The notes under the pieces were generated by a model. The model did no database searches and was not told the DNA's origin. It saw only the letters and a list, made by a program, of their open reading frames with translations. Position numbers and translations under genes: made by a program. DNA of 64,000 nt from Castellaniella sp. S9 (lineage in GTDB: Bacteria > Pseudomonadota > Gammaproteobacteria > Burkholderiales > Burkholderiaceae_B): contig NZ_JAPFGD010000009.1 in NCBI RefSeq assembly GCF_027257175.1, positions 62,001-126,000 on the forward strand. Direction: 5' to 3'. Below, piece after piece: positions 7,258-33,529 of this stretch (positions are counted from its first letter, which is position 1; every line of letters begins with the position of its first letter).

Positions 7258-7261
7258 GCAT

Positions 7262-8259: not shown

Positions 8260-8338
8260 GTTGTTTGGGCCTTGCAACGGGCTGAGCCGCGCGCGGCTCA
8301 AGGCATCGAGCCGCGCCGATCATGGCGTCATCGGTGAT

Positions 8339-9310: not shown

Positions 9311-9360
9311 GGGGTGCCTTTCGATCATGAGTGGTAGATAGGAATAATTGGTACAAGCAA

Positions 9361-9383
9361 TTGATACGTTATAACATAGCATT
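9361..9383. promoter_or_regulatory. Zur-box-like operator upstream of znuA
   Basis: A palindrome centred on GTTATAAC (9368-9375). Read on the minus strand it contains AATGCTATGTTATAAC, identical over 16 bases to the site at 12300. It matches the general TGTTATANNATAACA-type pattern of zinc uptake regulator boxes. It sits between znuA and zur, closer to znuA. Confidence 0.72.
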
Positions 9384-9515
9384 TATGGGCTGTTCGACAT
9401 GCTCGTATTCAAGCGAAATCCATGGCGCAGGCTCCGCGCACAAGGTTTTATGGAGGCGCTGTGGTTGACGGGCGGTCCGGCCGTCAAAAAGTCTGCCGCG
9501 TTGTACACTACCCCT

Positions 9516-9995: not shown

Positions 9996-12274
9996 AACTC
10001 CACCCGCAGGTTTGCCGATACCGTCCGCCCGGGCGAGGTGTAGGCGGCCAGGCGCGGATCATTGCCGGTCAGGCCGCTGACCCGCGACCACTCGTGGTAT
10101 TTGCGGTCAAACAGGTTGAACACCGCCAGATTGAGCGTGGCCTGCTTGCCTAGGCGCACATAGCCGGTCATGTCGACCGTGGTGTAGCCGGCGGTGGTCA
10201 GGGGCACCGGGGCGGTGGGGCCGGTTTGCGTCAGATCCTCATTGACCCGCTTCTTGGCCGAGACGAAGGTGCCGATCAGCTGGCCGCCGTACTGGGCGCC
10301 CGCCGCATCCCAGGCCAGCGCCGCGACCAGTTTGAAGGGCTGCACGCTGTTGAGCGGCTGATCGTTGGTGAGGTCATTGCCCATCGCCCATTGGGCCGCG
10401 CCGATCAGGCGCCACCGATCCTGGCTGTCGATCCATGGGTTCAGCGACAGCGTGCCTTTGGCCTCGATGCCGTAGATCTCGACCTCGCCGATGTTGCGCG
10501 ACTGAAAGCGCCGGATGGCGCGCGGCCCGCCGCTCGCCCCAGACGGGATGTAGGCGATCATCTGGGTATCGATGAAGTCCTTGTACCGGTTGTAGAAGCC
10601 GGTCAGTTCGTACGTGCCGGCCGCGGACTCGCCGCGCATGCCCAACTCCACCCCACGGCTGTGCTCGGGTTTCAGGTCCGGCGCCGGAATGAAGTCGTGG
10701 ATGAAAGTGGCCACGGGCACCTGACCGATCCGGTTCAACTGATCGTAGGTCGGCATTCTGAAGCCGGTCACATAATTCGCATATAAGACCTGTCTGGGGT
10801 GCCATTCGTAACTGAGCCCCAGGCGCGGCGTGAAGGCGCTTTCGGACAGGCCCACTGGTTGGCTGTTGGCCACGTTCGCGTTGGCAAACTCGTCATCGGG
10901 CTTGGGCGACAGCTTGTAGTAGTCGTAGCGCAGGCTGGGTGTGAGTTTGATGCGTCCATCGCCAAAAGCGATCTCGTCCTGGAAGAACAGGCCGATGCTG
11001 CGCACGTCGGTGTCCGGCGCGATCTTGCGCGGGTAGACGTCGCCGTCGATCACGTGGGTGGCGGGGCCGCCCGCGGCTGAACGCTGGCTGGCATCGTTGG
11101 TAAAGCTGATCGACTTATACAGCAGGTCAACGCCGGCCACCCAGCGGTGGCTCGTCGCACCCGCGCTCGCGTGGCCATCGATCTGGAGCGAACCCGACCA
11201 TTGCGGCTCGCGGTACGAGAGCAGGGTGTCGCGCAGCAGGGCCGGCGATGCGCCTGGCGGCTGGCGATGCTCGGCGGTGCGCTCCTTGCTCGTGCTGCGC
11301 TGGTAGTCGATCTGGGCTCTGAGCGTATCGAACCATCCGGCCTGCGCATCCCAGCGATAGGCCAGCCCCAGGCGCGAGCGGGTGCTGTCGTCGTCCGCCG
11401 AGCTGCGCAGGATGCGGGTGCCTCCGGCGATCGGGCCGGCCAGCGAGTCCTGTTCGGTCTTGACGTTTTGCGTGTAGTACTCGCCGGTCAGTGTGAGGCT
11501 CTGAGCCGAGCCCAGATCGAGGATGGACTTGAGCAGCACGTTTTGCTGATCGACGTCCTGCGGGTTGGGGACGGCGCTGCTGTCGTTGTTTTCCAGCTCA
11601 TGGCCTTTGCGCGCGGTCACCGAGAGCAGGTTCTGCGTGGGGCCGGCCCGAAATGCCAGGTTGGCGGTGGCCGAGCGGCTGTTGTCGGCGCCGTCGTAGC
11701 CGATCGAGGCGTTGCCGGCAAAGCCTTGTCCCTCGTCCAGAAAGTCGGTGGGCGACAGGGTACGAAACAGCACGACGCCCGCCAGGGCATCGCTGCCATA
11801 CAGGCTGGATGCCGGGCCGCGCAACACTTCCACGCGCGAGAGCGAGGCTGGGTCAAGCTTGAGCTGGCCCAGATTGGCGCCGGCGGCCACGTAGCCGTTG
11901 GGCAGGCGCACGCCATCGACCAGCATCGCCAGGCGTTGCCCGCCGATGCCGCGCACCTCGATTCCGGCTTCGCCGCCCCGGCCGCGCGGCTCGCGCTTGA
12001 CCGCAATGCCCGGTTCGTAGCGGAACAGTTCACCAAAGTCGGTGACGAGATTTTCCTGCATCTGCGCCTGGTCGATGACGCTGATGGTGGCCGGTGTGGT
12101 CAAGGCATCGCTGGCCTGCCGGGTGGCGGTGACCACCACGGGGGCCAGTTGCGTCGTGTGCGTGACGGACGTTTGAGCGTGGTCGGAGGAGGGACTTTGC
12201 TGAGCGTATGCGCCGCCCGAGAACGCGGCGGCGAGCGCCAGGGCGAGTGGCGTCCAGTGATGAGGTCGAGTCAT
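9992..12274 (-). CDS. TonB-dependent outer-membrane receptor, Zur-linked
   Basis: A 760-residue outer-membrane beta-barrel transporter. Signal peptide (LALALAAAFSGGAYAQ), TonB box region (LAPVVVTATRQ), plug domain (about residues 50-165: GIEVRGIGGQRLAMLVDGVR, VEVLRGPASSLYGSDALAG) and a barrel ending in TVSANLRVEF with terminal Phe. It is of the haemoglobin/transferrin-type receptor subfamily by wording (YEPGIAVKREPRGRGG), but the location beside zur and a Zur box argues for uptake of zinc or a zinc complex, as in ZnuD-type receptors. Divergent from the CobN-like gene and sharing its 72-bp control region. Confidence 0.85.
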   Translation of the reverse strand: MTRPHHWTPLALALAAAFSGGAYAQQSPSSDHAQTSVTHTTQLAPVVVTATRQASDALTTPATISVIDQAQMQENLVTDFGELFRYEPGIAVKREPRGRGGEAGIEVRGIGGQRLAMLVDGVRLPNGYVAAGANLGQLKLDPASLSRVEVLRGPASSLYGSDALAGVVLFRTLSPTDFLDEGQGFAGNASIGYDGADNSRSATANLAFRAGPTQNLLSVTARKGHELENNDSSAVPNPQDVDQQNVLLKSILDLGSAQSLTLTGEYYTQNVKTEQDSLAGPIAGGTRILRSSADDDSTRSRLGLAYRWDAQAGWFDTLRAQIDYQRSTSKERTAEHRQPPGASPALLRDTLLSYREPQWSGSLQIDGHASAGATSHRWVAGVDLLYKSISFTNDASQRSAAGGPATHVIDGDVYPRKIAPDTDVRSIGLFFQDEIAFGDGRIKLTPSLRYDYYKLSPKPDDEFANANVANSQPVGLSESAFTPRLGLSYEWHPRQVLYANYVTGFRMPTYDQLNRIGQVPVATFIHDFIPAPDLKPEHSRGVELGMRGESAAGTYELTGFYNRYKDFIDTQMIAYIPSGASGGPRAIRRFQSRNIGEVEIYGIEAKGTLSLNPWIDSQDRWRLIGAAQWAMGNDLTNDQPLNSVQPFKLVAALAWDAAGAQYGGQLIGTFVSAKKRVNEDLTQTGPTAPVPLTTAGYTTVDMTGYVRLGKQATLNLAVFNLFDRKYHEWSRVSGLTGNDPRLAAYTSPGRTVSANLRVEF

Positions 12275-12299
12275 GTGAGGCCGTAAGAGAGCGTTAGAA

Positions 12300-12323
12300 A
12301 ATGCTATGTTATAACATCACATT
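12300..12323. promoter_or_regulatory. Zur-box-like operator between TonB receptor and CobN-like gene
   Basis: Palindrome centred on GTTATAAC (12308-12315) in the only intergenic space between the divergent receptor (start 12274) and the CobN-like gene (start 12347). It shares the 16-mer AATGCTATGTTATAAC with the znuA site. One operator would control both transcription units. Confidence 0.74.
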
Positions 12324-12346
12324 ATTGATGATGAAAAGAAGAACGC

Positions 12347-15300
12347 ATGAATCGGACAAGAGGGTTTGATCGATGGGCGGCGCCATGGTTGCGCTCGCGC
12401 CGTCCGCTCGGCTGGGGCATGGCGGCGGCGCTGCTGCTGGGCGTGTTGGGGGTCGCATGGCACTATTGGCTTGCCCCTACGCGCGTGGCGCTGGTGAACT
12501 ATCCGGACTTCCAGGCCGCGCGCATCATCCAGGCGCGCCCGAACGCCATGGTCCGCGTCAAGGCACTGAAAACGGAGCAGCTGGAGGACATCCGAGGCTA
12601 TGACCTGGCGCTCGTCTTTGGCCGGGGCCTCAAATTGGATGAAGCGCAGCTGGCGCGCCTGCAGTCGGTGGCCGCGGCAGGCACGCCCGTGTATGTGGAT
12701 GGCGCAACCGATCCGCGCCACGACGTGACGAACCTCGAGGGCGCCGACCTGGATGCGGTTTCGGGCTACTTGCGCAACGGCGGACGGCGCAACTATGCGC
12801 AGTTCCTGAACTACGCGCGTCGCGTCTTCGATGGCAAGCCACTGTTTTCCGCCGACGTGCGAGCGCCCGAGGAAATGCCTCGGGATGTGTTCTTTGGCCT
12901 GGATGAGGCGGCGGTCTTTACCGACTTCGCGGCGTTCCAGGCGTGGCGTAAGGACCAGCCCGGCTGGCAGGCGGGGCGGCCGCGCCTGGCGCTGCTGACC
13001 AGCGTGCCCGGCCCCTTCAATGCCAATCGCGAACACGTCGATGCGGTGATCCGCGCGTTCGAGGCCGAAGGCTTCAATGTGGTGCCGATTTCGGCGGTGG
13101 GCCGGCGCCTGGCGCTGTTGCAGCAGGTGGATCCGGCGGCGGTCGTCTACATGCCGCATGGCCGGCTGACCCTGGGCCAGGCTGACGAAGCCCAGGCCTG
13201 GCTCGCCCAACGCAATATTCCGTTGTTTGCGCCCCTGACCATTTTCAATGAACAGAGCGATTGGGAGGGCGATCAGCGCAGCTATGACGGCGGACTGCTG
13301 ACCATGTCGGTGACGCTGCCCGAGCTGGACGGGGCGATCGCGCCCATGGTGATCGCCGCTCAGGCGCGCGATGCCAACGGCCTGAAAGTCTTTCGAGCCT
13401 TGCCCGAGCGCCTGGCGCGTTTTGCCAGCCTCGTGCGGCGCACGGTGGCGCTCAAGCACACCGCCAACGCGGACAAGAAGCTGGCGATCTACTACTACAA
13501 GGGACCGGGGCTCAGCGCGCTGACCGCCGGCGATCTGGAGGTCGTGCCGTCTCTGTACGCGCTGCTCACGCATCTGAAAGCGCAGGGCTACCGTGTCGAA
13601 GGATTGCCGGATACGGTCGAAGGGTTTGCCCGCTTGCTACAGCAGCGTGGACCGAATATCGGGCCGTACGCCAAGGGCGATTTCGCGGCCTTCGCGCGCG
13701 ATGCGGATCCAGCCTTGGTGTCCGCCGCGCAGTTGGGGCAGTGGTGCGGCGCAAGCATCCCGCAGGCGCTCTGCGACCAGGTCGCCCAGCAGTTCGGGCC
13801 GGCGCCGGGTCGCTATCTGCGCATCGATGACCAGGTGGCCGTGGCGCGCGTCCCGCTGGGCAATGTCGTGCTCTTGCCGCAGCCCTTGCCCGGCATCGGT
13901 GACGATACCTTCAAGCTGGTGCATGGCACGAATCGGGCGCCACCCTGGCCTTATGTGGCTTCCTACCTCTGGACACGCCAGGTGTTCCAGGCCGACGCCA
14001 TCATGCACTTCGGCACGCACGGCAGCCTGGAGTTCACACCCTGGAAGCAGGTGGGTCTGTCCGATCACGACTGGCCCGATGCGCTGATCGGGCAAACGCC
14101 GCACGTCTATCTGTACACCATGGGCAATGTGGGCGAGGCCATGATCGCCAAGCGGCGCAGCTACGCCACCATCGTCTCGCACCTGACGCCGGCCTTTCGC
14201 GAGGGCGGGGCGCAGGCCGACGCCAAGCAGTTGGCCGATCGCCTGCAGGCCTGGGACCATGCCGAGAATGCTGCATTGAAGGCGGAATATGCCAAAGACG
14301 TTCAGCGCGAGGCGGTGGCGCTGAAGCTGAACGAGGATCTGGGTTTCTCAGCGGATATGGCCTGGAGCCCCGAACAGCTGGCGAAGCTGGCCGATCATAT
14401 GGAAACGCTGGAGCATGCCAAGATCATCGCCGGGCTGTATACGCTGGGCACCGCGTATTCGGTCGATGACCAGCACGGCTCGGCGCGGCTCATGGGGATC
14501 GATGCGCTGATACAGGCGCTAGCCGAGTTGGACGTGGCGCGCGGGGTGGTGACGCGCGCGCAGCTCGACAGCCCCGCCTGGCTGGCCGAGCACTATCGCG
14601 ACCGGGCCGATGCGTTGATCACCGAGGTCAGCGCAGAAGGCGCAGATCCCGCGCAAGTCTTGGCCCGTGTTGTCAGCGACTCGGAACTGCAACGCGCACA
14701 AGCCTGGGAGCGTGCGCGACCACAACCGGGCGATGAGGATCTGATCACGGGTTTTGCCCAAGCCGTGCTGACCCTGCGCGATCGACTGCGTGCCATTCCG
14801 GGATATGGGGCACTGCTGGCCGACAGCCCGGCGCGCGAGCTGGCCGCGCTGGATAATGCGCTGTCTGGCGGCTACACGCCGCCTTCGTCGGGCGGCGATC
14901 CCATTGCGAATCCCGCCGCGCTGCCCACGGGCCGCAATCTGTTTTCCATCGACGCCGAGAAAACACCGTCCGAGCAGGCCTGGCGCGTGGGGGTGCGGCT
15001 GGCCGACCAGTTGCTGGCCGAACATCGGGCAACACACGAGGGCGCCTGGCCCCGGAAAGTGGCCTTCACGCTCTGGGCGGGCGATTTCATCCAGACCGAG
15101 GGCGTGGCGCTTGCGCAAATCCTTTATCTGCTGGGGGTGGAGCCGGTGCGCGATCCCTTTGGCCGTATCGCCAGCCTGCGCCTGATCCCGCAAGCCGAGC
15201 TCGCGCGCCCGCGCATCGACGTGGTGGTGCAGACTTCGGGCCAGTTGCGTGATCTGGCGGCATCGCGCCTGTACCTGATCAATCAGGCCGTGGCGCTGGC

Positions 15301-16495
15301 CGCCGGCGCGCGCGATGAGGACAACGCCGTGGCGCAAGGCGTGCGGGCCGTGGAGCGTGAACTGAAGGATAAAGGCCTGTCGCCGCTGGATGCCCGGCGC
15401 TTGGCCTCGGTACGGGTCTTTGGGGGGGTCAACGGCAATTACGGCACGGGCATCCTGGGCATGGTCGAGGCGGGGGACCGCTGGCAGGACGCCTCGCAGG
15501 TGGCCGGCACCTACTTGAACAATATGGGCGCAGCCTTTGGCGAAGGGGATTTGTGGGGCGCCTTCCAGCCCGGTGTTTTCCAGGCAGCGTTGGGCGGCAC
15601 CGACCTGGTGGTCCAGCCCTTGCAGTCCAACACCTGGGGACCGATTTCGCTCGATCACGTCTACGAGTTCATGGGCGGGCTGAACCTGGCGGTGCGCGAA
15701 GTGACCGGCAAGGACCCGGCCGCCTACTTCAGCGACTTGCGCAACCCCGCGCGCCCCGTCATGCGCGAAGCGGGCGCCGCGATTGCCGTCGAGGCGCGCG
15801 CGACCCTGCTCAACCCCGCCTATATCGAGGCCATGACCCAGGGCGGCGCGTCGTCCGCCGAGACCTTTGCCGAAACCTTCCGGAATGTCTACGGCTGGAA
15901 CGTGATGAAGCCCTCGGTCATCCGGCCCGCGCTGTGGGATGCGCTGTACGAGACCTACGTGCAGGATGCGCAAAACCTGGGCGTGCGCGAATTTTTCGAG
16001 AAAACCAATCCCTACGCCTTGCAGGAGATGACGGCGGTGATGCTGGAGACGGCGCGCAAAGGATACTGGCAACCTGGCGAGCCGGTGTTGCACTCGGTGG
16101 CCAGCCTGCATGCCGAACTGGTAGCGAAATTTGGCGCAAGCGGCACCGAGTTCGTCAACGACAACCAGGCATTGCGCACGTTCATTGCGCAGCGGCTCGA
16201 TGCCGGTCAGCGCCGGCCCTACGAGGACCGTTTGCAGCAGGCCAACGAGGGCACCCTGATCGACATCGACAAAGGCGTGGTGTTGAGCAAGGAGGGTGGT
16301 GCCGCCGAGCCCGCACAGGCGGGGCAAGACAGCGACCAACCGCCTGCAAGGGCAAAGACGGATCGGGCCACCCCGTCGCCCGCCTGGCGGGGGTTGGCCA
16401 TTCCAGCGAGCGTGGTACTTGGCCTGCTGTTGATGCTGGCGGCGGTCATTGCATGGGTGCGCTGGCGCCACGCCGCTGCGGGGAGGGGGGCTTGA
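12347..16495 (+). CDS. membrane-anchored CobN-like metallochelatase subunit
   Basis: A 1382-residue member of the CobN/Mg-chelatase H-subunit family. The large-subunit hallmark MHFGTHGSLEFTPWKQVG is at about residues 552-569, and GGVNGNYGTGI and AAFGEGDLWGAFQPGVF lie further on. Unlike cytoplasmic CobN it has an N-terminal membrane anchor (GMAAALLLGVLGVAWHYWL, about 25-43) after an Arg-rich head and a C-terminal one (IPASVVLGLLLMLAAVIAWV, about 1352-1371). With positive ends inside, the chelatase body should be periplasmic. No cobalamin-synthesis genes are near; instead it sits in a Zur-type operon with ExbB-like and DUF2149 proteins. It may insert into or remove metal from a tetrapyrrole-like ligand; that is inference. 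Confidence 0.82.
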   Translation: MNRTRGFDRWAAPWLRSRRPLGWGMAAALLLGVLGVAWHYWLAPTRVALVNYPDFQAARIIQARPNAMVRVKALKTEQLEDIRGYDLALVFGRGLKLDEAQLARLQSVAAAGTPVYVDGATDPRHDVTNLEGADLDAVSGYLRNGGRRNYAQFLNYARRVFDGKPLFSADVRAPEEMPRDVFFGLDEAAVFTDFAAFQAWRKDQPGWQAGRPRLALLTSVPGPFNANREHVDAVIRAFEAEGFNVVPISAVGRRLALLQQVDPAAVVYMPHGRLTLGQADEAQAWLAQRNIPLFAPLTIFNEQSDWEGDQRSYDGGLLTMSVTLPELDGAIAPMVIAAQARDANGLKVFRALPERLARFASLVRRTVALKHTANADKKLAIYYYKGPGLSALTAGDLEVVPSLYALLTHLKAQGYRVEGLPDTVEGFARLLQQRGPNIGPYAKGDFAAFARDADPALVSAAQLGQWCGASIPQALCDQVAQQFGPAPGRYLRIDDQVAVARVPLGNVVLLPQPLPGIGDDTFKLVHGTNRAPPWPYVASYLWTRQVFQADAIMHFGTHGSLEFTPWKQVGLSDHDWPDALIGQTPHVYLYTMGNVGEAMIAKRRSYATIVSHLTPAFREGGAQADAKQLADRLQAWDHAENAALKAEYAKDVQREAVALKLNEDLGFSADMAWSPEQLAKLADHMETLEHAKIIAGLYTLGTAYSVDDQHGSARLMGIDALIQALAELDVARGVVTRAQLDSPAWLAEHYRDRADALITEVSAEGADPAQVLARVVSDSELQRAQAWERARPQPGDEDLITGFAQAVLTLRDRLRAIPGYGALLADSPARELAALDNALSGGYTPPSSGGDPIANPAALPTGRNLFSIDAEKTPSEQAWRVGVRLADQLLAEHRATHEGAWPRKVAFTLWAGDFIQTEGVALAQILYLLGVEPVRDPFGRIASLRLIPQAELARPRIDVVVQTSGQLRDLAASRLYLINQAVALAAGARDEDNAVAQGVRAVERELKDKGLSPLDARRLASVRVFGGVNGNYGTGILGMVEAGDRWQDASQVAGTYLNNMGAAFGEGDLWGAFQPGVFQAALGGTDLVVQPLQSNTWGPISLDHVYEFMGGLNLAVREVTGKDPAAYFSDLRNPARPVMREAGAAIAVEARATLLNPAYIEAMTQGGASSAETFAETFRNVYGWNVMKPSVIRPALWDALYETYVQDAQNLGVREFFEKTNPYALQEMTAVMLETARKGYWQPGEPVLHSVASLHAELVAKFGASGTEFVNDNQALRTFIAQRLDAGQRRPYEDRLQQANEGTLIDIDKGVVLSKEGGAAEPAQAGQDSDQPPARAKTDRATPSPAWRGLAIPASVVLGLLLMLAAVIAWVRWRHAAAGRGA

Positions 16496-17160
16496 ACCTG
16501 GCCCAGCTTCTCGTGTTCATGCTGGCCGCCGTGTGCCTGGCGCTGGCCGCCGCCCAGATGTCGGCGCTGCGCCCGCGTGGCCTGATGGTGCTGGCGGTCG
16601 CAATAGGCGTGGGCGTGCTGGCGACGGGCGAGGTGGCCGGCAGAATCAGTCTGGCCGAGGTCGCCAGTTGGGTGTCCGACCCGCAAAGGCGGCTGGATTT
16701 GTCGGCACTGCTGCTGCTCGAAGCGTTGGTCTTTGGCGGTCAGGCGCTGGCGGTGGCTCAGGATGGAGCGCGCCTGAGGTGGCGCATCGTGGGTGCGTGC
16801 CCGCCGCCGTCCTTGCTGGCTATTCTGTTTTTTGGGCAGGTGGCGGCCATGCTCGCCACGGACGGCGTGGACTATGGGCTGGTGTCGTGGGTGTGCGCCG
16901 TGGCATTTGCCGGCTTGTTTGTCTTGAGCGCCCGCCTGCTGCGCTGGCTGTTGCCGGATCCGCTCATGCGCTCGGGCCTGCGCGTCGTGCTGCACATCAC
17001 ACAGGCGGCCATCGGGCTCTGGTTGGCCAGGCCCGCGCAAGCGCTGCCTGCGGAGCCGGCGCCCGCCCTGTGGGGGCGCCTGGGTATTCTGGCCGCCGCT
17101 GCATTTGTCTTCATGGCGCTGGGCTGGCTTTGGCAGCGCCGCTCTACCTGGAATCGATGA
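16492..17160 (+). CDS. polytopic membrane protein of the CobN-like operon
   Basis: A 222-residue hydrophobic protein with about six to seven helices (LAQLLVFMLAAVCLALAAA, LMVLAVAIGVGVLATGEV, LLLLEALVFGGQALAV, LGILAAAAFVFMALGWLW). The start is TTG at 16492, overlapping the CobN-like stop (CTTGA) directly after a strong GGGGAGGGGGG ribosome site, which settles the start despite the rare codon. The stop overlaps an ATG of another frame. I do not recognise a named family; genes of this type recur beside CobN-like/ExbB/DUF2149 sets. Confidence 0.7.
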   Translation: MNLAQLLVFMLAAVCLALAAAQMSALRPRGLMVLAVAIGVGVLATGEVAGRISLAEVASWVSDPQRRLDLSALLLLEALVFGGQALAVAQDGARLRWRIVGACPPPSLLAILFFGQVAAMLATDGVDYGLVSWVCAVAFAGLFVLSARLLRWLLPDPLMRSGLRVVLHITQAAIGLWLARPAQALPAEPAPALWGRLGILAAAAFVFMALGWLWQRRSTWNR

Positions 17161-17161
17161 A

Positions 17162-17764
17162 TTGGAACAGTTGATACACGCCCTTTCCTGGATCTCCGCC
17201 GCCCTGCAGGTGCCGGTCGTGGTCGCCATCCTCTATTTGCTCGCGCGTGGCCTGCTGGCCGCAGGCGGCTATTATGGCCGCTGGTCGGACCGGCTGCGCT
17301 GGCGCCGGCGCATCGGCGTGGACCGCGACGGGCATTTGCCCGGGGCGGACATCGATGCGCTCGTCGAAGGGCTGGATGGCGGGCGCGGCGCGGGCCGGCC
17401 GCTGCAACGCGCCGTGGCGGCCCTGCGGCTGGCACCCACCGATGCAGCCTGGCACGAACGGGTCATCACCGAGTTTGAGCTGAGTTCGGACCGGCAGTTG
17501 GCGCTCTACCGCAGCATGACGCGGATCGGGCCCTTGCTGGGCCTCATGGGCACCCTGATTCCGCTGGGCCCGGCGCTGGTGGGCCTGGCCGCGGGCGACA
17601 TCAGCCTGCTCGCGCGCAAGATGGAAGTCGCCTTTGCCACGACGGTCGTGGGCCTGGTGATCGGCGCAATGGGATTCCTGCTGCACCAGAGCGCCAGCCG
17701 CTGGGCGCTGGACGACCTGTCGCTGCTGGAATTCCTGAGCAGCAAGCTGCGGGAAAAGCCGTGA
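17162..17764 (+). CDS. MotA/TolQ/ExbB-type proton channel protein
   Basis: About 200 residues with the three-helix layout of ExbB/TolQ/MotA: helix 1 (ALQVPVVVAILYLLARGLLA), a cytoplasmic loop of about 80 residues, then helices 2 and 3 (RIGPLLGLMGTLIPLGPALV and FATTVVGLVIGAMGFLLHQ) carrying the typical small and Thr residues. TTG at 17162 is taken as start, two bases after the previous stop; no ATG or GTG fits in frame near by. Such proteins convert proton flow into force for TonB- or Tol-type work. In this operon the partner is probably the DUF2149 protein whose gene overlaps the stop. Confidence 0.75.
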   Translation: MEQLIHALSWISAALQVPVVVAILYLLARGLLAAGGYYGRWSDRLRWRRRIGVDRDGHLPGADIDALVEGLDGGRGAGRPLQRAVAALRLAPTDAAWHERVITEFELSSDRQLALYRSMTRIGPLLGLMGTLIPLGPALVGLAAGDISLLARKMEVAFATTVVGLVIGAMGFLLHQSASRWALDDLSLLEFLSSKLREKP

Positions 17765-18120
17765 GCCGGCGCCGCTCCATCCTGCGCGGCACGGGCGCAA
17801 ACAGCGATGACATGGATCCGCTGGGCTTTCTCATCAACCTGTTCGATGTGGCGCTGGTCTTTGCGCTGGCCCTCATGATCGCGCTGGTTTCGAACCTGAA
17901 GATGGCCGATCTGCTCACCTCCAAGGACTTCACCATGGTCAAGAATCCGGGCCAGCCCGACATGGAGATCATCACCCGCGAAGGCGGCAAGGTGTCGCGC
18001 TATGTGGCCGGTGACGCCAAGGCGGGTTCGCGCCAGGGCGAACGCGTGGGCACCGCGTACCGGCTGGAGAGCGGGGAGATCGTCTACGTGCCGGATGGCT
18101 CGCCGCCTGCGGCGCAATAG
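17761..18120 (+). CDS. DUF2149 protein (ExbD-like position)
   Basis: A 119-residue protein with one transmembrane helix (LINLFDVALVFALALMIALV, about 24-43) followed by a small extracytoplasmic domain, the topology of ExbD/TolR/MotB. The start overlaps the ExbB-like stop by four bases (GTGA), so translation is coupled. DUF2149 genes are known to travel with CobN-like and MotA/ExbB genes. The asparagine-aspartate helix (LFDVALVFAL) would place an Asp within or next to the membrane, as needed for proton coupling in ExbD; that comparison is mine. Confidence 0.72.
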   Translation: MSRRRSILRGTGANSDDMDPLGFLINLFDVALVFALALMIALVSNLKMADLLTSKDFTMVKNPGQPDMEIITREGGKVSRYVAGDAKAGSRQGERVGTAYRLESGEIVYVPDGSPPAAQ

Positions 18121-18198
18121 GGCGGTCTCTGGCGTTGCGCCAGGTTTTTGGTCCGTCGTTGTGCCCGCGATGGGCGCGCAGGCAGTAGCATACGGGCC

Positions 18199-19098
18199 AT
18201 GAACCAGCCGTCAGCCAAATCCGTTTCCAATGCATCTCCTCTGGCGGGGATCGCCTGCGTGTCCGCGGGCATCCTGTTCCTGACCTGCAGCGACGCCCTG
18301 GCCAAATGGATTGGTGATTATTACAGCCCGGTGCAGATCCTGTTCCTGCGGTCGGTGATTGCCTTGCCGGTGGTGCTGGCGCTGGTCCTCGCCCTGGGCG
18401 GGCAGCGCGCGCTGCGCACGCGTCATGTGGGCCTGCACCTGTTGCGCGGCGGGCTCAATATCATTTCGGCGTCGCTGTTCTATCTGGCCCTGCGGAGCCT
18501 GCCCTTGGCGGAGACCACCGCCATTGCGTTTTCCGCGCCCTTGTTCGTGACCGCGCTGTCCGTGCTGGTGCTGAAAGAGCGTGTGGACCGCAAGGGCTGG
18601 CTGGCGGTGGCGGCCGGATTCGCGGGCGTGCTGGTCATCGTGCGGCCTGGCGCCGACAGCTTCCAGATGGCGGCGCTGTTGCCGCTGGCGACCGCGGCGA
18701 TGTATGCCGTCATGATGCTGAGCGCCCGAGGCATCAACGCCGCCGAGAGCATGCTGACGACGATGTTTTATATCGTGGCGGGCCAACTGGTGTGCAGCGC
18801 GCTTGCCGCCCCGGTGTTCTGGACGCCGCCGGCCTGGTCGCACCTGCCGTTCTTTGTCGGTATCGCTTTGTTCAGCACGCTGGGGCTGACCTTCATTACC
18901 CAGGGATTCCGCATCGGGCCCGCGTCGGTGGTTGCGCCCTTCGATTACACGGGCCTGTTGTGGGCAACGTTGCTGGGATGGCTGGTGTGGCAGGATATCC
19001 CGGATGTGCTCGACAGCCTCGGAGCGGCATTGATCGTCGGCAGCGGCCTGTGCATTGCGTGGCGGGAAACGCGTCCCGGCAAGAGGCGACGCGCCTGA
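18199..19098 (+). CDS. EamA/DMT-superfamily transporter
   Basis: A 299-residue inner-membrane exporter with ten predicted helices in two EamA repeats (first about 12-145, second about 155-292). Typical segments are [40 protein letters not shown] and [20 protein letters not shown]. Start chosen at 18199, where the helix-1 region begins; the earlier start at 18148 adds an Arg-rich leader. Substrate unknown. It converges on the sodB stub. Confidence 0.82.
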
Positions 19099-19183
19099 GC
19101 GGCGTGTGCCGCCACGGCGGCAATCGTGGAAGACGGTTTTTCGTCGCCAGCGGGAATGTCGTGCGCTTCGGCGGGGCGGTTGC

Positions 19184-19349
19184 TCATGTGGCGGCCTGGT
19201 AGCGACGCGCCACCTCGTTCCAGTCGATCACATTGAAGAACGCGGCGATATATTCCGGGCGGCGGTTCTGGTACTTCAGATAGTAGGCGTGTTCCCACAC
19301 GTCCAGCCCCAGCACGGGCGTATTGCCGTGCATCAGCGGGCTGTTGATT
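19184..19349 (-). pseudogene. sodB: Fe-superoxide dismutase, 3' fragment
   Basis: Only the last about 54 residues are present: [20 protein letters not shown], then [20 protein letters not shown] and a normal stop. The segment DVWEHAYY carries the metal-ligand Asp and His of Fe/Mn SOD, so identity is secure. The first two thirds of the gene are absent; homology stops at about 19349 and is followed by stacked terminators and the ICE attachment site. The chromosome was broken inside sodB by an earlier insertion or deletion. Confidence 0.82.
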
Positions 19350-19384
19350 CGCGATAGCAGAATATTCAGAACGAAACCATCAAG

Positions 19385-19414
19385 CGCAAAAAAGCCCAGA
19401 CCGAAATCTGGGCT
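19385..19414 (-). terminator. rho-independent terminator
   Basis: Hairpin AGCCCAGA / TCTGGGCT (arms of 8, loop of 6) followed on the minus strand by a run of six T residues. Confidence 0.65.
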
Positions 19415-19426
19415 CCAGAATGTTGA

Positions 19427-19463
19427 TAAACCCCCTGTTTTTTGAACAGTGGGGTTTATTTTT
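19427..19463 (+). terminator. rho-independent terminator
   Basis: Stem TAAACCCC / GGGGTTTA extended by CTGTT / AACAG, then TTATTTTT on the plus strand. Confidence 0.65.
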
Positions 19464-19596
19464 CGGTCACATCTATGCGGATCGGCTGCTCGAAAGCCAA
19501 TCCATCAGCCGCGAGTGCAGCTCAAAAAATGGACTCAAAAATGGCCTTAAATCGTGTGGCTGTAGGCGGACGCCGTGGATGTCACTGGACGAAAAA

Positions 19597-19628
19597 AAGG
19601 CCGAAAAACAAAGTTTTCGGCCTTCTTT
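19597..19628 (+). terminator. terminator-like hairpin
   Basis: Perfect 11-bp stem AAGGCCGAAAA / TTTTCGGCCTT followed by CTTTC; A-rich on the other side, so it may work in both directions. It is flanked by two copies of GTGGATGTC..TGGACGAAAA, a short repeat at about 19575 and 19651. Confidence 0.55.
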
Positions 19629-19671
19629 CAATCATCTATGGACGTTGGTGGATGTCCATGGACGAAAATTC

Positions 19672-19689
19672 TGGAGCGGGAAACGAGAC
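19672..19689. repeat. ICE attachment site (tRNA-Gly 3' end)
   Basis: The 18 bases TGGAGCGGGAAACGAGAC are the complement of GTCTCGTTTCCCGCTCCA, the last 18 bases of a bacterial tRNA-Gly gene and the known core attachment sequence of ICEclc-family elements. The rest of the tRNA is not present on either side, so this is the end of the element distal to the integrase and to the intact tRNA gene. ICE-type genes begin 0.8 kb to the right. Confidence 0.88.
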
Positions 19690-20481
19690 GTGCACTAGGC
19701 GCGTAAGTCGTTGTTTCCCGAACATTTTCTTCGCCGAGGTGGCCAGCGAAGACCTAAATTGTAGCCTATTTTTTCGTCCCCGCCAACAAGACCGTCCAAA
19801 GAGTTCCGCTGGCATCCATAGACCAACACTCAGCACACCAGACTCACACTCGTCACAACGTCGTCGGCGACGGCGACGGCGACGGTCTCGAACTGGCCGA
19901 CCGTGCCCCTGCTCTCAGCTCCCGCATCCGCTACCGCGATGACGCCCAGGCCGATCCTCTCGGTGGCGGCCCAGTTCGGATGCCATCTACGAGCCGCATG
20001 CAACGCGCACTGCATCGCCCGTCTGCGCAAGTCACGCAGGACGAACGCGCGCCCTGGGCGTGGCGGGTCAGCACGCGATTCTTTGTCGGTATATCAGGAT
20101 GACAGGGCGGGTATGACAGGCGTGGATTCGCTACGTTTTCCAAGACCTTGGACAACGACCACCATCTCGTCGCGCCTTGTGAAACCGCTGGCATATAAGG
20201 CCATACCGAGACAGGTTTGCAGAAGTCGCAACTTATTACGACGCTGATAGCGTGAGCGTCACTGTCGAGCCTATGTCCCGATGCTCGACCTTCTAGCGGC
20301 CGATGAATTTTTGCACATTGGGCACATTACAGCCACCAGTAAAGCGCACTGGTGAGAAGTGCTCAAGCACCCATGACGGATCGGGCCTCGGGGCTCGTTT
20401 CCTACACAGACAACTTCCCGACCACTGGGTCGGTGTCAAAGGAGTCGGCCATGTAGTTCTTCTCCTGGAAGGAGACGGAGC
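19690..20481. other. degenerate ICE end, no intact gene
   Basis: About 790 bp between the attachment site and the first ICE gene. A remnant open frame at about 19850-20105 reads VVGDGDGDGLELADRAP and ends WAWRVSTRFFVGISG; it has coding-like composition but no start and no family I know. Otherwise I see nothing. In ICEclc this end carries the mfsR/mfsABC/tciR genes, which are not present here. Confidence 0.5.
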
Positions 20482-21237
20482 ATGCACGAGAACAAGAATG
20501 ATGTACCAACATCAAAGGTGTTCTACCGCCCGATCGAAGCGTCCATCCGCTGGGCTGGGCTGCTGCGATACGAGCAGGTGATCCTGGCCTCGGTGCTATC
20601 GCCAAGGAATCTGCCACAGTCGTTGGATTGCCCACGCTGGGGCGAACTGCGGCTATACACCGACCGCATCTACGACGGCATCCTCAATGGGGAACTGCCC
20701 TTCGGGCAGAACGGCATCACAATAAGCGATACCGCACTGATCGACTCCCCTGATTTGACGGTTCGCCACGTCGATCTGAAGCGCTGGATGCGCCAGCACT
20801 ACCCCGAGCAGCGGCCCGGCTTTCTCTTCTCCCGCAGCGAACGCATCGCCCATCCCTTCATCTCGCTGGAGACCGGCCAAGCCATGCTGATCGAACGATT
20901 GGCCCTCAAATCCGCTCTGGAGCAGTGCAAGCGCCAAATGCGCGAGCTGCAAGAACAGCACGACGCGCTACTCAAGCAGTCCACGGTCATTCCCGCCTGC
21001 GCGCAATGCCCCATCAGCGACCGGGCCGAGGCCACCTACCTCCACATTATCGGCACCATGCTGGAGCTGATGCTCGGCCAATCCCCGTCGGGCACACCGT
21101 ATTCCAGTTTCAATAGCCAGGAAGCTATCGCTACCGCGATGATCGCGCATCACGGCGAACTCATGGGCATTACCGATCGCACGCTGCAAGCCAAGTTTGC
21201 ACAAGCCCGCCGCAAGCTGCGGGCCGCCGTTTCCTGA
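20482..21237 (+). CDS. BisR-like ICE activator candidate
   Basis: A 251-residue soluble protein without a recognisable domain. It has a coiled-coil-prone middle (ALKSALEQCKRQMRELQEQH), a CAQC motif and a C-terminal part with a DNA-binding-like helix pattern (ITDRTLQAKFAQARRKLRAA). It follows a clear ribosome site (GGAAGGAGACGGAG). It lies directly upstream of alpA in the same direction, and in ICEclc that place is held by bisR, a gene for a protein of the same size class that triggers the alpA promoter. The equivalence rests on position and length from memory and should be confirmed by alignment. Confidence 0.55.
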   Translation: MHENKNDVPTSKVFYRPIEASIRWAGLLRYEQVILASVLSPRNLPQSLDCPRWGELRLYTDRIYDGILNGELPFGQNGITISDTALIDSPDLTVRHVDLKRWMRQHYPEQRPGFLFSRSERIAHPFISLETGQAMLIERLALKSALEQCKRQMRELQEQHDALLKQSTVIPACAQCPISDRAEATYLHIIGTMLELMLGQSPSGTPYSSFNSQEAIATAMIAHHGELMGITDRTLQAKFAQARRKLRAAVS

Positions 21238-21612: not shown

Positions 21613-22488
21613 ATGCAGGTTGTATCCATCATCTCGACCAAGGGCGGCGTCGGCAAAACGACCACCGCAGCCAACCTCGGCGGACTTGCCGCCGACGCGG
21701 GCTTGCGCGTACTGCTGCTCGACCTGGACGTGCAGCCCACGTTGTCGTCCTATTACGAACTGGCCCACCGCGCGCCCGGTGGCATTTACGAGCTGCTGGC
21801 CTTCAACGAGCGCGATCTCGACCGGCTCGTGTCCCGCACGAGCATCGCGGGCCTGGATCTGGTGCTTTCCAACGACCACCGAGGCGAACTGAACACCTTG
21901 CTGCTGCATGCGCCGGACGGGCGCCTGCGGTTACGCCATCTGTTGCCGGTGCTGGCGCCTCTCTATGACCTGCTGCTGATCGACACCCAGGGCGCGCGCA
22001 GCGTCTTGCTGGAGATGGCCGTGCTCGCCTCCGATCTTGCGCTGTCGCCCGTGACCCCGGAAATCCTTGCGGCGCGCGAGCTGCGGCGCGGCACCATGCA
22101 GTTGCTGGAGGACATCGCGCCGTACCGGCACCTCGGCATTGAGCCGCCGCCGCTCCACCTGCTCATCAACCGCGTCCATCCAGTGTCCACGAACGCCCGG
22201 CTGATCCAGCAGGCGCTGCGCGACCTGTTCCAGGACCATGCCGGCATATGCGTGCTGGGCACCGACGTGCCGGCCATCGAAGCCTATCCGCGTGCTGCGA
22301 CCCGCGGCCTGCCGGTGCATCGCGTCGAGCATCGCCAGCCACCGGGCAGAGTTGCGCCCGCTGCGCTCGACACCATGCGCGCGCTCGCCGGCGAATTGTT
22401 CCCTCAATGGCAAAACAAATTCGCCCTCGTGTCCAGCCGTCCTCCACGTTCTATTGAAACAGGGAGGCCCCATGGCGAACGCACATGA
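21613..22488 (+). CDS. parA: ParA-like partition/regulatory ATPase
   Basis: A 291-residue deviant-Walker ATPase. The KGGVGKTTTAANLGGLAA motif, switch residue region LLLDLDVQPTLSSYYEL, and LLLIDTQGARSVL are plain. In ICEclc the homologous ParA, together with the small Shi protein, arrests cell division in transfer-competent cells besides any partition role. Its 3' end overlaps the start of shi by 17 bp, showing coupled translation. Confidence 0.88.
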   Translation: MQVVSIISTKGGVGKTTTAANLGGLAADAGLRVLLLDLDVQPTLSSYYELAHRAPGGIYELLAFNERDLDRLVSRTSIAGLDLVLSNDHRGELNTLLLHAPDGRLRLRHLLPVLAPLYDLLLIDTQGARSVLLEMAVLASDLALSPVTPEILAARELRRGTMQLLEDIAPYRHLGIEPPPLHLLINRVHPVSTNARLIQQALRDLFQDHAGICVLGTDVPAIEAYPRAATRGLPVHRVEHRQPPGRVAPAALDTMRALAGELFPQWQNKFALVSSRPPRSIETGRPHGERT

Positions 22489-22732
22489 ACTGGCCCGTGG
22501 CCACAAGCGGCTGCGCGCCCTGATCGAGTTCGCGGTGAGCGAAGGCTGGCACGTCAAACGCACCCGGGGCGGACACCTCAAATTCACCAAGACCGGCTGC
22601 GCCGCCATCTACACCAGCTCGACCGCGAGCGATTACCGGGCGGATCTCAACGCCCGTGCGCAGATCCGCCGAGCCGAGCGCGAGGCCCGCATGGCCCGGG
22701 CCGCCAACGCAGAGGGATGCGGCCATGGCTGA
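22472..22732 (+). CDS. shi: Shi-like small ICE protein
   Basis: An 86-residue basic protein between parA and parB, overlapping both (by 17 bp and 8 bp). It reads HKRLRALIEFAVSEGWHVKR then RGGHLKFTKTGCAAIYTSST, a fold reminiscent of HicA/YcfA double-stranded RNA-binding domains with the histidine in GGHLKF. In ICEclc the gene in this place is shi, required with parA for division arrest of donor cells. Identity is by position and size. A HicA-like toxin is the alternative reading. Confidence 0.68.
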   Translation: MANAHELARGHKRLRALIEFAVSEGWHVKRTRGGHLKFTKTGCAAIYTSSTASDYRADLNARAQIRRAEREARMARAANAEGCGHG

Positions 22733-24389
22733 GATGACCTCCCAGGACATGGCCGGCAAGCTGCTTGCCGCCGGGTTCGAGCGCAGCGGCCCATCGGCCA
22801 CGGCCTTGAGCGACCCCATCGCCGACACCCCGATGGTCGTGACGCTGGACCAGTTGCGGCCCTACGACCACGACCCCCGCAAAAAACGCAACTCGGCCTA
22901 CGATGAAATCAAGGCCTCCATCCGAGAGCGCGGCCTGGATGCAGCGCCCGCCATCACACGCCGTCCTGGCGAGGCGCACTACATCATTCGCAACGGTGGC
23001 AACACGCGGCTCGCGATCCTGCGTGAACTCTGGGCAGAGACGAAGGACGAACGTTTTTTCCGCATATCGTGCCTGTTCCGGCCGTGGCCTGCGCGTGGAG
23101 AGATCGTCGCGCTGACCGGGCACCTCGCCGAGAACGAACTGCGTGGCGGCTTGACGTTCATCGAGCGCGCCCTCGGCGTCGAGAAGGCGCGCGAGTTCTA
23201 TGAAGAAGAAACCAGCACCACCCTGAGCCAGTCCGAGCTAGCCCGCCGCCTGGCCGCCGACGGCTTCCCCGTGCAGCAGTCGCACATCAGCCGCATGGCC
23301 GATGCGGTGCGCTACCTGCTGCCCGCGATTCCGACCGTCCTGTATGGGGGCCTCGGCCGCCACCAGGTCGAGCGGCTGTCAGTCATGCGCAAGGCCAGCG
23401 AGCGCACGTGGGAGCACTACGCGAAGGGCCGCTCCTTGCCGTTGGACTTCGACAGCTTCTTTCTGGAGGCGCTGTCGCAGTTCGACGCCCAGGCCGACGA
23501 GTTCTCGCCGCAGCGTGTACAGGACGAGTTGATCGGTCAGATGTCCGAGCTGCTGGGCATTGACTACGATCTGCTCGCCCTGGACCTGACCGAATCCGAG
23601 AGCCGTCATCGCGCCCTGGTCAGCGACCCAACCCCGCCTTCGGCGCCGCCGGCATTGCCTGAGCCTGGGCGCATCGCACGGCCGCCGATCGAACCGGCAC
23701 CGTCCCCCGCTACACCAGCACCTCCCGCAGGCCATTCCGAGGCCGTACCTGCAAGGCGCGAAAACAATGCGGCCCCGAGCGAGGCATCCACGGCGAGCCC
23801 TGCGGCAGCGGCTGGCGATCTGCTTGCCGAGCACATCATCTCCCCGGCACCCACGACGGAGCGGCTCCAGTCCATCCAGCGCATGGTCGCCGACCAGTTG
23901 GGCGATGCGCTGCCACCCGACTTCTCGGCCAACGTATTGCAGTCGATACCCGTGCAGGCTGGTGGCCTCTATCCCATCTCGGACATCTGGCATATCGACC
24001 CTGGCCTCGACACGCCTGACCGGTTGCGCATCCACATCGCGCAGTTCGCGCGCGAGATCGCGGGCGAGGCCGACCTGGACGAGTGCGTCGAGGATCGACC
24101 TGACGGCATCGGGTTCGCGTGTCGTGCCCCGACTCAGGCTTCGTCTCCACTGGGCCGCGTCGTGCTCGGGCTGCTGGTTTCCCTGGCCGGTCAGCAGCCA
24201 GCCAGCGTCGGCTTGGACAGCAGGCAACTCGCCGCCGACCTGCCAACGGTGTTGCACGGCCATGGCCAACGTCATGACGACGGGGCGCAGCGATTGAGCG
24301 ACACCGCGCTGGTCAAGCTGTTCCGGCTGCTGCGACTGGCCCGGCGCCTGTTGGATCTGGAGCCCGGCGCTGTCGGTCCTGGGACCTGA
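22725..24389 (+). CDS. parB: ParB-domain protein (BisD-like)
   Basis: A 554-residue ParB-type nucleotide-binding/DNA-binding protein. ParB N-domain at about residues 36-130 (TLDQLRPYDHDPRKKRNSAYD, IIRNGGNTRLAIL, HLAENELRGGLTFIERALG), a helix-turn-helix at about 165-190 (LSQSELARRLAADGFPVQQSHISRM), then a long Pro/Ala-rich linker (about 305-390) and a C-terminal domain. In ICEclc the ParB-domain protein of this operon is BisD, part of the BisDC master activator. The ATG at 22725 overlaps the shi stop. Strongly supported as ParB family; the BisD role is inferred from order. Confidence 0.85.
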   Translation: MAEMTSQDMAGKLLAAGFERSGPSATALSDPIADTPMVVTLDQLRPYDHDPRKKRNSAYDEIKASIRERGLDAAPAITRRPGEAHYIIRNGGNTRLAILRELWAETKDERFFRISCLFRPWPARGEIVALTGHLAENELRGGLTFIERALGVEKAREFYEEETSTTLSQSELARRLAADGFPVQQSHISRMADAVRYLLPAIPTVLYGGLGRHQVERLSVMRKASERTWEHYAKGRSLPLDFDSFFLEALSQFDAQADEFSPQRVQDELIGQMSELLGIDYDLLALDLTESESRHRALVSDPTPPSAPPALPEPGRIARPPIEPAPSPATPAPPAGHSEAVPARRENNAAPSEASTASPAAAAGDLLAEHIISPAPTTERLQSIQRMVADQLGDALPPDFSANVLQSIPVQAGGLYPISDIWHIDPGLDTPDRLRIHIAQFAREIAGEADLDECVEDRPDGIGFACRAPTQASSPLGRVVLGLLVSLAGQQPASVGLDSRQLAADLPTVLHGHGQRHDDGAQRLSDTALVKLFRLLRLARRLLDLEPGAVGPGT

Positions 24390-24968: not shown

Positions 24969-26219
24969 ATGGCCGTGGACGACGCTGCACCACGAGCACC
25001 ACGCCAAGGCCCGGTCGCCCTCGCTGATCTGTTCGACAGCGCGCTGAAAGACCTTGCACCGAAACCTCGCCCACCCGCGCCGGCTCCCGCCTTCGCATCC
25101 GCGACGTCTCCTGTGTCTGCAACCGGCGACGGTTTCCTGTTCAGTGGAAATCGGCACGAGAGCGTGCCGCGACGGCTGTTCCTCGACCGACGCCTGACGC
25201 CGCTGGAACGCAATGCCTGGCAAGTCTTCCGGATGATGCTCAACGAGGATGGCGTCACGGCGTTTCCGACGTATGAGCAACTTCGCCCGTGGCTCGCGTC
25301 AATGCCCTGCGCCGGACAGGCCTCCCACGAGACCGTGGCACGGGCGCTGACGCTGTTGCGCCTGACGCGCTGGTTGAGTCTCGTGCGCCGCAGGCGCGAC
25401 CCCAAGACCGGGCGCATCCTCGGCAACCTCTACGTCCTGCACGATGAGCCCCTGACCCCGTTCGAGGCGATGCAGCTTGACCCGGACTACCTGCAGCTCG
25501 TCAGCCAAGCCCTGGGCCATTCGGCCAGGGCCGTTCAGGTCGTGGGCTTGCACACGCTCAATGAGATCGCCGAAGACCCGCTGCTGTCTGGCCGCATGCT
25601 GCCCTCGCGGCTGCAGGTCCTTGCCGAACGCCTCGCAAGCCAAGGCATTGGGTCGCAGGAGAGTTATCCACAGGAGGACACGGTTCACGATTCCGAAGAA
25701 GGGGCTCCGAGCCTTCTTCGGAGTTCTGATCGGCCCTCTTCGGATTCCGAAGTAGGGCCGAAACACGCAGCAGACGGCGCTCTTCGGAATCCGAAGCAGG
25801 ACCGTACTGTACGTAGTAGTCGTATTAATGAAGTACGTACTACCGCGCGTGAGCGTGGGCAGGCGCGCGCGATGCCGGGAGTTCGTTTGCCTGATCGCTT
25901 TCTCGGCTTGAAAGATGAACAGCAGGCCGGCGCCATGGTGGCATTGCAGCAGGTCGATGCCCCGCTACGCCAGGCCGTGCTGGACGAATGGGCGGATCGC
26001 TGTCGTGGCAGCACCATCCGCAACCCGGCAGGCTACCTGTTCGGCATCATCCAACGTGCCATCCGTGGCGAGTTCAACGCATGGGCCAAGCAAGCTGGGT
26101 CAGCACCGCCACCTGCCCCTGCACGAGATGCACCGCCTGAGCCACCCCGCAATGTGGCTCCGCCCGAGGTAGCCCGGCAGCACATCGACCGGCTGCGCGA
26201 CCTTCTGCGCAGTAGCTGA
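24969..26219 (+). CDS. STY4528-family island replication protein
   Basis: A 416-residue protein of the STY4528 pathogenicity-island replication family. The N-terminal third is Pro/Ala-rich, then a winged-helix block (RLFLDRRLTPLERNAWQVFR, HETVARALTLLRLTRWLSLV), and a C-terminal part shared by the family (DEWADRCRGSTIRNPAGYLF then GIIQRAIRGEFNAW). It follows the DUF2857 gene by three bases. The stretch around codons 240-290 is built from short palindromes (separate entry), which distorts codon use there and suggests that the gene carries its own replication origin. Confidence 0.8.
   Translation: MAVDDAAPRAPRQGPVALADLFDSALKDLAPKPRPPAPAPAFASATSPVSATGDGFLFSGNRHESVPRRLFLDRRLTPLERNAWQVFRMMLNEDGVTAFPTYEQLRPWLASMPCAGQASHETVARALTLLRLTRWLSLVRRRRDPKTGRILGNLYVLHDEPLTPFEAMQLDPDYLQLVSQALGHSARAVQVVGLHTLNEIAEDPLLSGRMLPSRLQVLAERLASQGIGSQESYPQEDTVHDSEEGAPSLLRSSDRPSSDSEVGPKHAADGALRNPKQDRTVRSSRINEVRTTARERGQARAMPGVRLPDRFLGLKDEQQAGAMVALQQVDAPLRQAVLDEWADRCRGSTIRNPAGYLFGIIQRAIRGEFNAWAKQAGSAPPPAPARDAPPEPPRNVAPPEVARQHIDRLRDLLRSS
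25692..25839. repeat. palindrome/iteron cluster inside the STY4528 gene
   Basis: Inside the coding sequence lie an 11-bp inverted repeat (TCCGAAGAAGG at 25692 / CCTTCTTCGGA at 25712), two 15-bp palindromes (CTTCGGATTCCGAAG at 25738 and CTTCGGAATCCGAAG at 25782, the first extended by GGCCCT/AGGGCC), and two copies of GTACGTA (25809, 25833) around a short AT-rich core (CGTATTAATGAAG). This is the layout of an iteron-type origin. Confidence 0.6.
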
Positions 26220-26432: not shown

Positions 26433-26549
26433 GCATTGCGGGCCGCCACCACGACGACAACCGGGGACCAGTTCATTTCGGTTTGTTGACTGACTGCCTT
26501 CCGCTGCGTGCCGATCCTGACCGCTCCTTTTCCCAAGCGAGCGGACACC

Positions 26550-27329
26550 ATGGCAACCAACGAACCTCTGCAACTCAATCTCGGCTCTTTGCGCAGCGCG
26601 ATGTCGCTGACGCTTCACACCCACCACGCCTCGCGCATCTGGCATGGCCGCGCCGCCGCCGAGGGACGACCCGGCATCGTCGGCCTGAACGGCTACATCG
26701 CCGTGATGAACAAGATGAAGCGCGGCTCGGAACAGGACGACCCGTACAGCGACTGGTGGATGTTGCGCATCGAGGAAAAGCTCGACCAGGCCAAGACCAC
26801 GTTGCAATCGCTGCGCGAGCAGGTGGACCAGGCATTGGCCGGCGTGCCTGCGGCGTTGAGCCTGGGCGAGAACCTCAACGTGCAACCGGTGAAGCTCCCC
26901 TTGTTCGTGAACGCGCAGCTCGGCTTTGCCGCGGTCTATCTCCTGGCCGACTATGACGACATCGCCCGCAAGCTGATCCTCGCCCATCACACCGCACTGA
27001 TCGATCGCTCGACATTGGAGCGCTGGCTCAACGAAGGCGCTCACACGCTGCGCAGCCTGTTCAGCCTGGCCCAGCAGTACCGCTACTCGGGATGCACCCG
27101 CGACGACTTCGCGGCCAAGAACGCCGCAGCGCGGGCGGCGCTGGAGAAGTTCGGCGACCTGCCGCAGGACGTGCTCGAAGGCGCTCGCCGCTCGAAGTTT
27201 GCGCCGCCCGTCGTGCGCCGCGGCCTGCAACAGCGCAGTGATAGCGCTGCCGCAGACGCACCTCCCAGCGACGAAGGCACTGCCGCCGATCCGGCCGAGG
27301 CCAGCACCGGCGAGGACGAACAGGCATGA
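26550..27329 (+). CDS. TIGR03761-family ICE protein
   Basis: A 259-residue conserved ICE protein of the TIGR03761 (PFL_4669) family, beginning MATNEPLQLNLGSLRSAM and containing TLHTHHASRIWHGRAAAEGR, GIVGLNGYIAVMNKMKRGSE and YSDWWMLRIEEKL, with a disordered acidic tail. It lies between replication genes and overlaps the DUF3158 gene by four bases (ATGA). Function unproven; the conserved place beside STY4528, ssb and topB suggests a role in element DNA processing. ATG 26550 fits the family start. Confidence 0.8.
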   Translation: MATNEPLQLNLGSLRSAMSLTLHTHHASRIWHGRAAAEGRPGIVGLNGYIAVMNKMKRGSEQDDPYSDWWMLRIEEKLDQAKTTLQSLREQVDQALAGVPAALSLGENLNVQPVKLPLFVNAQLGFAAVYLLADYDDIARKLILAHHTALIDRSTLERWLNEGAHTLRSLFSLAQQYRYSGCTRDDFAAKNAAARAALEKFGDLPQDVLEGARRSKFAPPVVRRGLQQRSDSAAADAPPSDEGTAADPAEASTGEDEQA

Positions 27330-33509: not shown

Positions 33510-33529
33510 GGTTGCTTCCTATAAAAAAC

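Follow-up and report, generated by a model that had tools for sequence, protein, structure and literature searches.

The 18 bases at 19672-19689 of the window (by which we mean the whole stretch of 64,000 nucleotides analyzed, C33:62001-126000 in an assembly of 3,807,583 bases and 33 contigs) very probably represent the far-end att site of an ICE of the ICEclc family, which is integrated in a tRNA-Gly(GCC) gene and was inserted beside an older island devoid of an integrase. On the strand as read, these bases are TGGAGCGGGAAACGAGAC; their reverse complement, GTCTCGTTTCCCGCTCCA, is identical at all 18 positions to the direct repeat of ICEclc as printed in PMC10732049. The features of the window are as follows.

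6766-6808, minus strand: native terminator, which follows tRNA-Gly in four of the five congeners aligned
6809-6826, minus strand: third att copy, GACTCGTTTCCCGTTCCA, the outer end of the older island
6925-7573, minus strand: gene for a ParE-like toxin (6937-7281; ParE_toxin) and the small frame before it (7262-7522), 85.8% identical to a stretch beside tRNA-Gly in congeners G006 and G007
7800-18122, unstranded: cluster of ZnuA, TonB receptor, CobN-like and ExbB-like genes, syntenic with two genomes of other genera
18148-19098, plus strand: gene for an EamA-type transporter
19184-19351, minus strand: C-terminal fragment, 55 aa, of an Fe/Mn superoxide dismutase (Sod_Fe_C, E = 3e-21)
19469-19671, minus strand: integrase-side arm of a second tRNA-Gly element, followed by no integrase here, with matches in G006, G007, and G039
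19672-19689, minus strand: far-end att copy of the ICE, at which homology to ICEclc-LB400 begins
19690-64000, plus strand: body of the ICE, far-end side, recognized by the match of 19666-21195 to LB400 and by ICE protein families, and presumed to extend past those genes
20482-21237, plus strand: 251-aa protein adjoining the ICE end, with 97% identity over 238 aa in LB400
21613-22488, plus strand: ParA-like ATPase, below the NCBI cut-offs
22656-24389, plus strand: ICE_PFGI_1_parB (TIGR03764, 399.8 bits)
24969-26219, plus strand: STY4528-family island replication protein (NF040582)
26508-27329, plus strand: PFL_4669-family ICE protein (TIGR03761)
28648-30678, plus strand: topoisomerase III (NF005829, TIGR01056)
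56125-62744, plus strand: conjugation genes PFL_4695, TraD, TIGR03747, TIGR03745, and TIGR03749 (NCBIfam)

At up to three mismatches, the 18-mer matches the window twice, against 0.10 matches expected (100 shuffles, with a largest count of 1). At up to two mismatches, three copies are found in the assembly and none by the backwards control: the sole exact copy at 19672-19689, one with a single mismatch at C29:379811-379828, and one with two mismatches at 6809-6826, with no further att copy at this threshold. The notion that the 18-mer is a chance occurrence or a conserved sequence without function, in favor of which nothing was found, deserves next to no credence, as these counts stand above the shuffles and the control and the homology to the far end of ICEclc-LB400 begins precisely at the repeat. 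No tRNA gene was called within the window.

The copy on contig C29 constitutes the final 18 bases of an intact tRNA-Gly(GCC) gene (C29:379753-379828; tRNAs were called with ARAGORN), the one tRNA-Gly gene found in the genome with this 3' end (anticodon GCC). It is followed by a gene for a tyrosine recombinase of 660 aa (C29:380013-381995) with arm-binding, central, and catalytic domains. This copy agrees with that in the window at 17 of 18 positions, differing at position 2 alone, which is A at the tRNA and T in the window. The phage-integrase family (PF00589) has 12 matches in the genome, 11 of them over the cut-off, and none on C33; thus, the end seen in the window is the integrase-free far end. 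Two further tRNA-Gly-like matches in the genome were rejected, as both proved to be tRNA-Val. The preliminary description had taken the 18 bases for the tRNA-Gly 3' end used by integrases of the ICEclc family, which holds but for the one base at the C29 tRNA. It had also predicted a second copy with an intact tRNA-Gly and an integrase gene at the other end; the search of the assembly that it proposed recovers all three on C29, although the copy is not exact and lies on a different contig. The ICE end that it placed at 19672-19689 is real and correctly positioned, being resolved to within the 18 bases of the repeat.

The genome of Paraburkholderia xenovorans LB400 contains ICEclc-LB400, with a reported size of 122,836 bp (PMC6050381), and shows three matches to the 18-mer at up to two mismatches. 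Two are the integrase-side repeat, GCCTCGTCTCCCGCTCCA, and the far copy, GTCTCGTCTCCCGCTCCA, which are 122,832 bases apart and display an asymmetry at position 2 in the same sense as here, with another base at the tRNA and T at the far end. The third is the end of a further tRNA-Gly, which, along with a tRNA-Cys, is faced by the far end of ICEclc-LB400, whereas the far end in the window faces an island remnant. The match of 19666-21195 to the far end of ICEclc-LB400 has 94.3% identity over 1536 bases, starting at the repeat and stopping where the compared LB400 stretch was cut. On the opposite side, the arm on C29 is 98.4% identical over 190 bases to the LB400 integrase arm, and the C29 integrase is 92.6% identical over 622 aa to that of ICEclc-LB400, the protein against which, rather than against IntB13 itself, its likeness to IntB13 is judged. 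The element has an IntB13-like integrase beside tRNA-Gly(GCC), and each of its ends carries the repeated tRNA-Gly 3' sequence (18/18 at the far end and 17/18 at the tRNA); in common with the ICEclc-LB400/ICEclc-B13 family are the 18-bp core, the tRNA-Gly(GCC) target, the integrase, both termini, and the parB and conjugation families. The cargo differs: genes for transposases, sulfite-oxidase-like proteins, and a P-type ATPase for metals are among those seen here, as opposed to the chlorocatechol and aminophenol cargo described for ICEclc (PMC6050381).

Among 20 proteins scanned against NCBIfam, hand-picked from the gene calls and including the C29 integrase, 11 score above the cut-off of a family that, in ICEs of the ICEclc class, represents conjugation, partition, or island functions, namely, parB TIGR03764, STY4528, PFL_4669, PFL_4695, TraD, TIGR03747, TIGR03745, TIGR03749, TraC PFL_4706, TIGR03755, and the MOBH relaxase. 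The core set of the family (MOBH relaxase, TraC/TraD, PFL ICE proteins, and parB) is therewith present. The 251-aa protein at 20482 has no match in NCBIfam or Pfam. A heavy-metal P-type ATPase of 1009 aa is encoded inside the ICE (window 33484-36513), and the right-hand part of C33 codes for Tn3-family and IS91-type transposases, two sulfite-oxidase-like proteins, and a COX1-like oxidase. The ICE body probably continues to the end of C33 (182104 in contig coordinates).

The same arrangement recurs in named genomes, where 399 stretches match a pattern, 374 of which encode a relative of the integrase; in the best 80 that we kept, tRNA-Gly(GCC) lies directly upstream of the integrase in 72 (ARAGORN). 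The eight without a tRNA-Gly call comprise four loci in which fewer than 300 bases separate the integrase from the contig edge where the locus starts (L102, L113, L134, and L144), two with the 18-mer and no tRNA body (L123 and L135), a pattern such as might be produced by tandem insertion, and two with neither (L079 and L098). Within 700 bases upstream, the 18-mer is found at up to three mismatches in 71 of the 80, and exactly in 32. Where a locus had several matches with the fewest mismatches, the last of them was counted, which for L142 was not the tRNA copy; the exact match of L135, a locus with no tRNA body, is not a tRNA end either. Of the nine loci in which it is absent at this threshold, six (L094, L095, L107, L108, L117, and L120) do possess a tRNA-Gly, with a more divergent 3' end; hence, the core is not invariant. 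Far copies with a single mismatch are known elsewhere too, since one mismatch in the putative attR is reported for 50 elements of Pseudomonas aeruginosa (PMC10732049).

The ICE material amounts to 100,415 bases on C33 and 12,618 on C29, or 113,033 in all, and we infer that the two contigs join through a gap in the assembly. A different reading is that the integrase end on C29 and the far end on C33 come from two distinct ICEs of this family, of which one is truncated. This would agree with the lack of a contig joining the ends: the pieces do not overlap at their ends, the terminal 500 bases of C33 have no match besides themselves, and the last 800 of C29 match themselves and two partial stretches, with no joining copy. 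It would also agree with the presence of another ICE of this class at C12:71500-82000, where ICE_PFGI_1_parB lies about 4 kb from an integrase; because of this second ICE, the interior genes cannot be uniquely assigned by class alone. However, the ICE on C12 carries an integrase of its own and sits at tRNA-Gly(CCC), the 18-mer occurs in the assembly once at a tRNA and once as an exact far copy, and no similar DNA is shared between the C29 and C33 pieces at an E value of 1e-5. Moreover, a single tRNA-Gly in congener G003 is flanked on one side by dapB and murB, the genes upstream of the tRNA on C29, and on the other by the genes at the left of C33. Taken together, these gene neighborhoods tie C29 and C33 to a single tRNA locus, and we consider the two-ICE reading improbable.

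The preliminary description further held that chromosomal genes end and ICE genes begin around the repeat. ICE genes indeed start to its right; the left neighbor, however, is not native chromosome but a tandem tRNA-Gly island without an integrase, with the native flank resuming at 6808. Read away from the site, 19469-19687 shows 92% identity to the bases immediately following tRNA-Gly in G006 and G007, out of nine congeners, and some 50 bases of the arm, no more, match in G001. In G006, the arm runs into a 56-aa stub matching Arm-DNA-bind_3 (E = 6e-9) and then a ParE-like gene, before which lies a small frame that is ParD-like by eye alone and has no Pfam match. In G039, which belongs to another genus, the same arm (94%) is followed by a frame with the arm-binding domain only. 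Since the arm follows tRNA-Gly and runs into integrase stubs in G006 and G039, 19469-19671 belongs, by sequence comparison, to a different tRNA-Gly element as its integrase-side arm, and the integrase of that element is missing here. Matches to the arm are found in 58 of 200 genomes drawn from the larger family, many extending little beyond the 18-mer. The G039 locus is itself an island of 3.25 kb at tRNA-Gly (L207, 14148-17415), with the integrase stub, an AbiEii toxin gene, and a DUF6088/AbiEi-like partner; another att copy lies 3.25 kb further along, and past it there is a frame with another integrase arm-binding domain.

The outer end of the older island is marked by the att copy at 6809-6826, which matches the 3' end of the host tRNA at 17 of 18 positions. 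Directly outside it, the 43 bases at 6766-6808 align with the terminator following tRNA-Gly in congeners G005 and G009 (85% over 62 bases including the repeat, E = 3e-9, in a table of alignments longer than 60 bases); a multiple alignment shows that the terminator is also shared with G003 and G004, that of G008 being different. Further left, the genes at window positions -840, -6685, -7593, and -8453 follow in the same order downstream of tRNA-Gly in G003 and G004, the first of them lying 129 bases from the tRNA in G004. On the other side, murB, which precedes the tRNA on C29, is just upstream of tRNA-Gly in G002, G003, G005, G008, and G009, as is dapB in G003 and G009, while the G004 contig ends there (matches above 45% identity with E of at most 1e-10). 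Other congeners complicate this picture. In G001, murB and the -840 gene are adjacent, about 17 kb away from the tRNA, and G006 has murB 13.8 kb downstream of it; thus, the locus has been rearranged in these genomes, and in G007, too, it is arranged differently. The stretch from window -184 to 6766, which separates the native terminator from the conserved neighbors, encodes an OpuAC-type transporter, an FAD monooxygenase, and a DUF2231 protein; up to 6766, no further att copy was found inside the window at up to three mismatches. A point against the island reading is an open frame at 6445-7020, ParE-like in its first part, that spans the terminator and the outer att copy.

One could alternatively regard all the DNA up to 19671 as ordinary chromosome, the match at 6809-6826 as fortuitous, and the ICE as having landed between tRNA-Gly and native genes. 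The TonB receptor, CobN, and EamA genes do look like ordinary metabolism, and the third copy departs from the tRNA at one base. Against this, 19469-19671 directly follows tRNA-Gly and enters integrase stubs in G006, G007, and G039 (those of G006 and G039 matching Arm-DNA-bind_3); a chance origin of 6809-6826 was rejected, given that its single mismatch to the host 18-mer was equaled by 0 matches in 100 shuffles and that it is succeeded by the terminator found after tRNA-Gly in congeners. The genes lying further left are the downstream neighbors of tRNA-Gly in those congeners, and among the matches listed, none from a congener covers the receptor stretch to a comparable extent. This alternative is hence very improbable, and we favor an older island, 6827-19671, whose 12,845 bases lie between two att sites belonging to the tRNA locus.

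The small frame at 7262-7522, beside the ParE-like toxin gene of this island, is again ParD-like by eye alone, with no Pfam match. The greater part of the island is syntenic with loci in two other genomes: window 7800-18099 largely with G028 (76-86%) and 9994-18122 with G070 (79-82%), both from other genera, with no tRNA-Gly called in the 20-kb stretches of these two genomes that hold the ZnuA-CobN-ExbB cluster. Among the matches listed for 200 genomes drawn from the larger family, the best from a congener is that of G002, with 73% identity across about 550 bases in the ZnuA part. The gene families suggest that the cluster serves zinc or cobalt uptake. As 27 terminator-like bases at 19388-19414 are 96% identical to a stretch just past the zinc cluster in G028, the intervening DNA with the EamA gene and the superoxide dismutase fragment may be a later insert; for its source, only short matches were found among the loci compared, the outer 600 bases being searched within the genus. 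No conjugation gene was found in the island among the genes tested by family, nor any PF00589 match that could represent its integrase anywhere on C33.

Based on these observations, we propose that the older island, with its own outer att at 6809-6826, was probably present at tRNA-Gly first. The IntB13-like integrase would then have recombined attP of the circular ICE with attB at the tRNA 3' end. The tRNA would thereby have stayed intact on the integrase side (C29), with an 18-bp copy deposited on the far side, in the window. Entry of the ICE would have pushed the older island away from the tRNA, such that the far copy now lies between both units. The T of the far copy and the A of the tRNA fit strand exchange 3' of position 2, the 5' part of the far copy, with its T, having come with the element; a later point mutation is the alternative origin of the T. 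The ICE may still be active. Excision between the tRNA and 19672 would release the ICE alone, and that between the tRNA and 6809 the ICE together with the island. It is conceivable, if somewhat doubtful, that the two form one composite mobile unit, in which the ICE integrase can also recombine the tRNA copy with the outer att and the zinc/cobalt-uptake-like cluster is captured cargo; were this so, position 2 would report the event, with T denoting excision of the ICE alone and A that of the composite.

In cis-mobilizable elements (CIMEs), which are best described in streptococci, att-flanked DNA without an integrase likewise adjoins an ICE, mobilization in the present case being putative. The idea of composite excision is already known, since it is reported for tandem clc-like islands in Bordetella petrii (PMC2717098) and ICEclc-type elements in tandem are reported in P. 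aeruginosa (PMC10732049). As described for GI1-GI3 of B. petrii (PMC2717098), clc-like elements stand here in tandem at one tRNA-Gly with repeats in common; unlike in GI1-GI3, the second unit has no integrase and no conjugation gene among those tested, and its excision is putative.

Provided that C29 and C33 join, the analysis fixes the two ends of an ICEclc-family element that is at least 113 kb long. The element belongs to a known family, tandem composites at tRNA-Gly are already published for B. petrii, and the tandem island remnant is the one point that the earlier reading missed. The end of an ICE need not face native chromosome, as older islands pile up at the same tRNA; here, about 12.8 kb would be misassigned if everything beyond the repeat were labeled as chromosome. 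Mismatches among the three att copies would furnish natural markers for composite excision.
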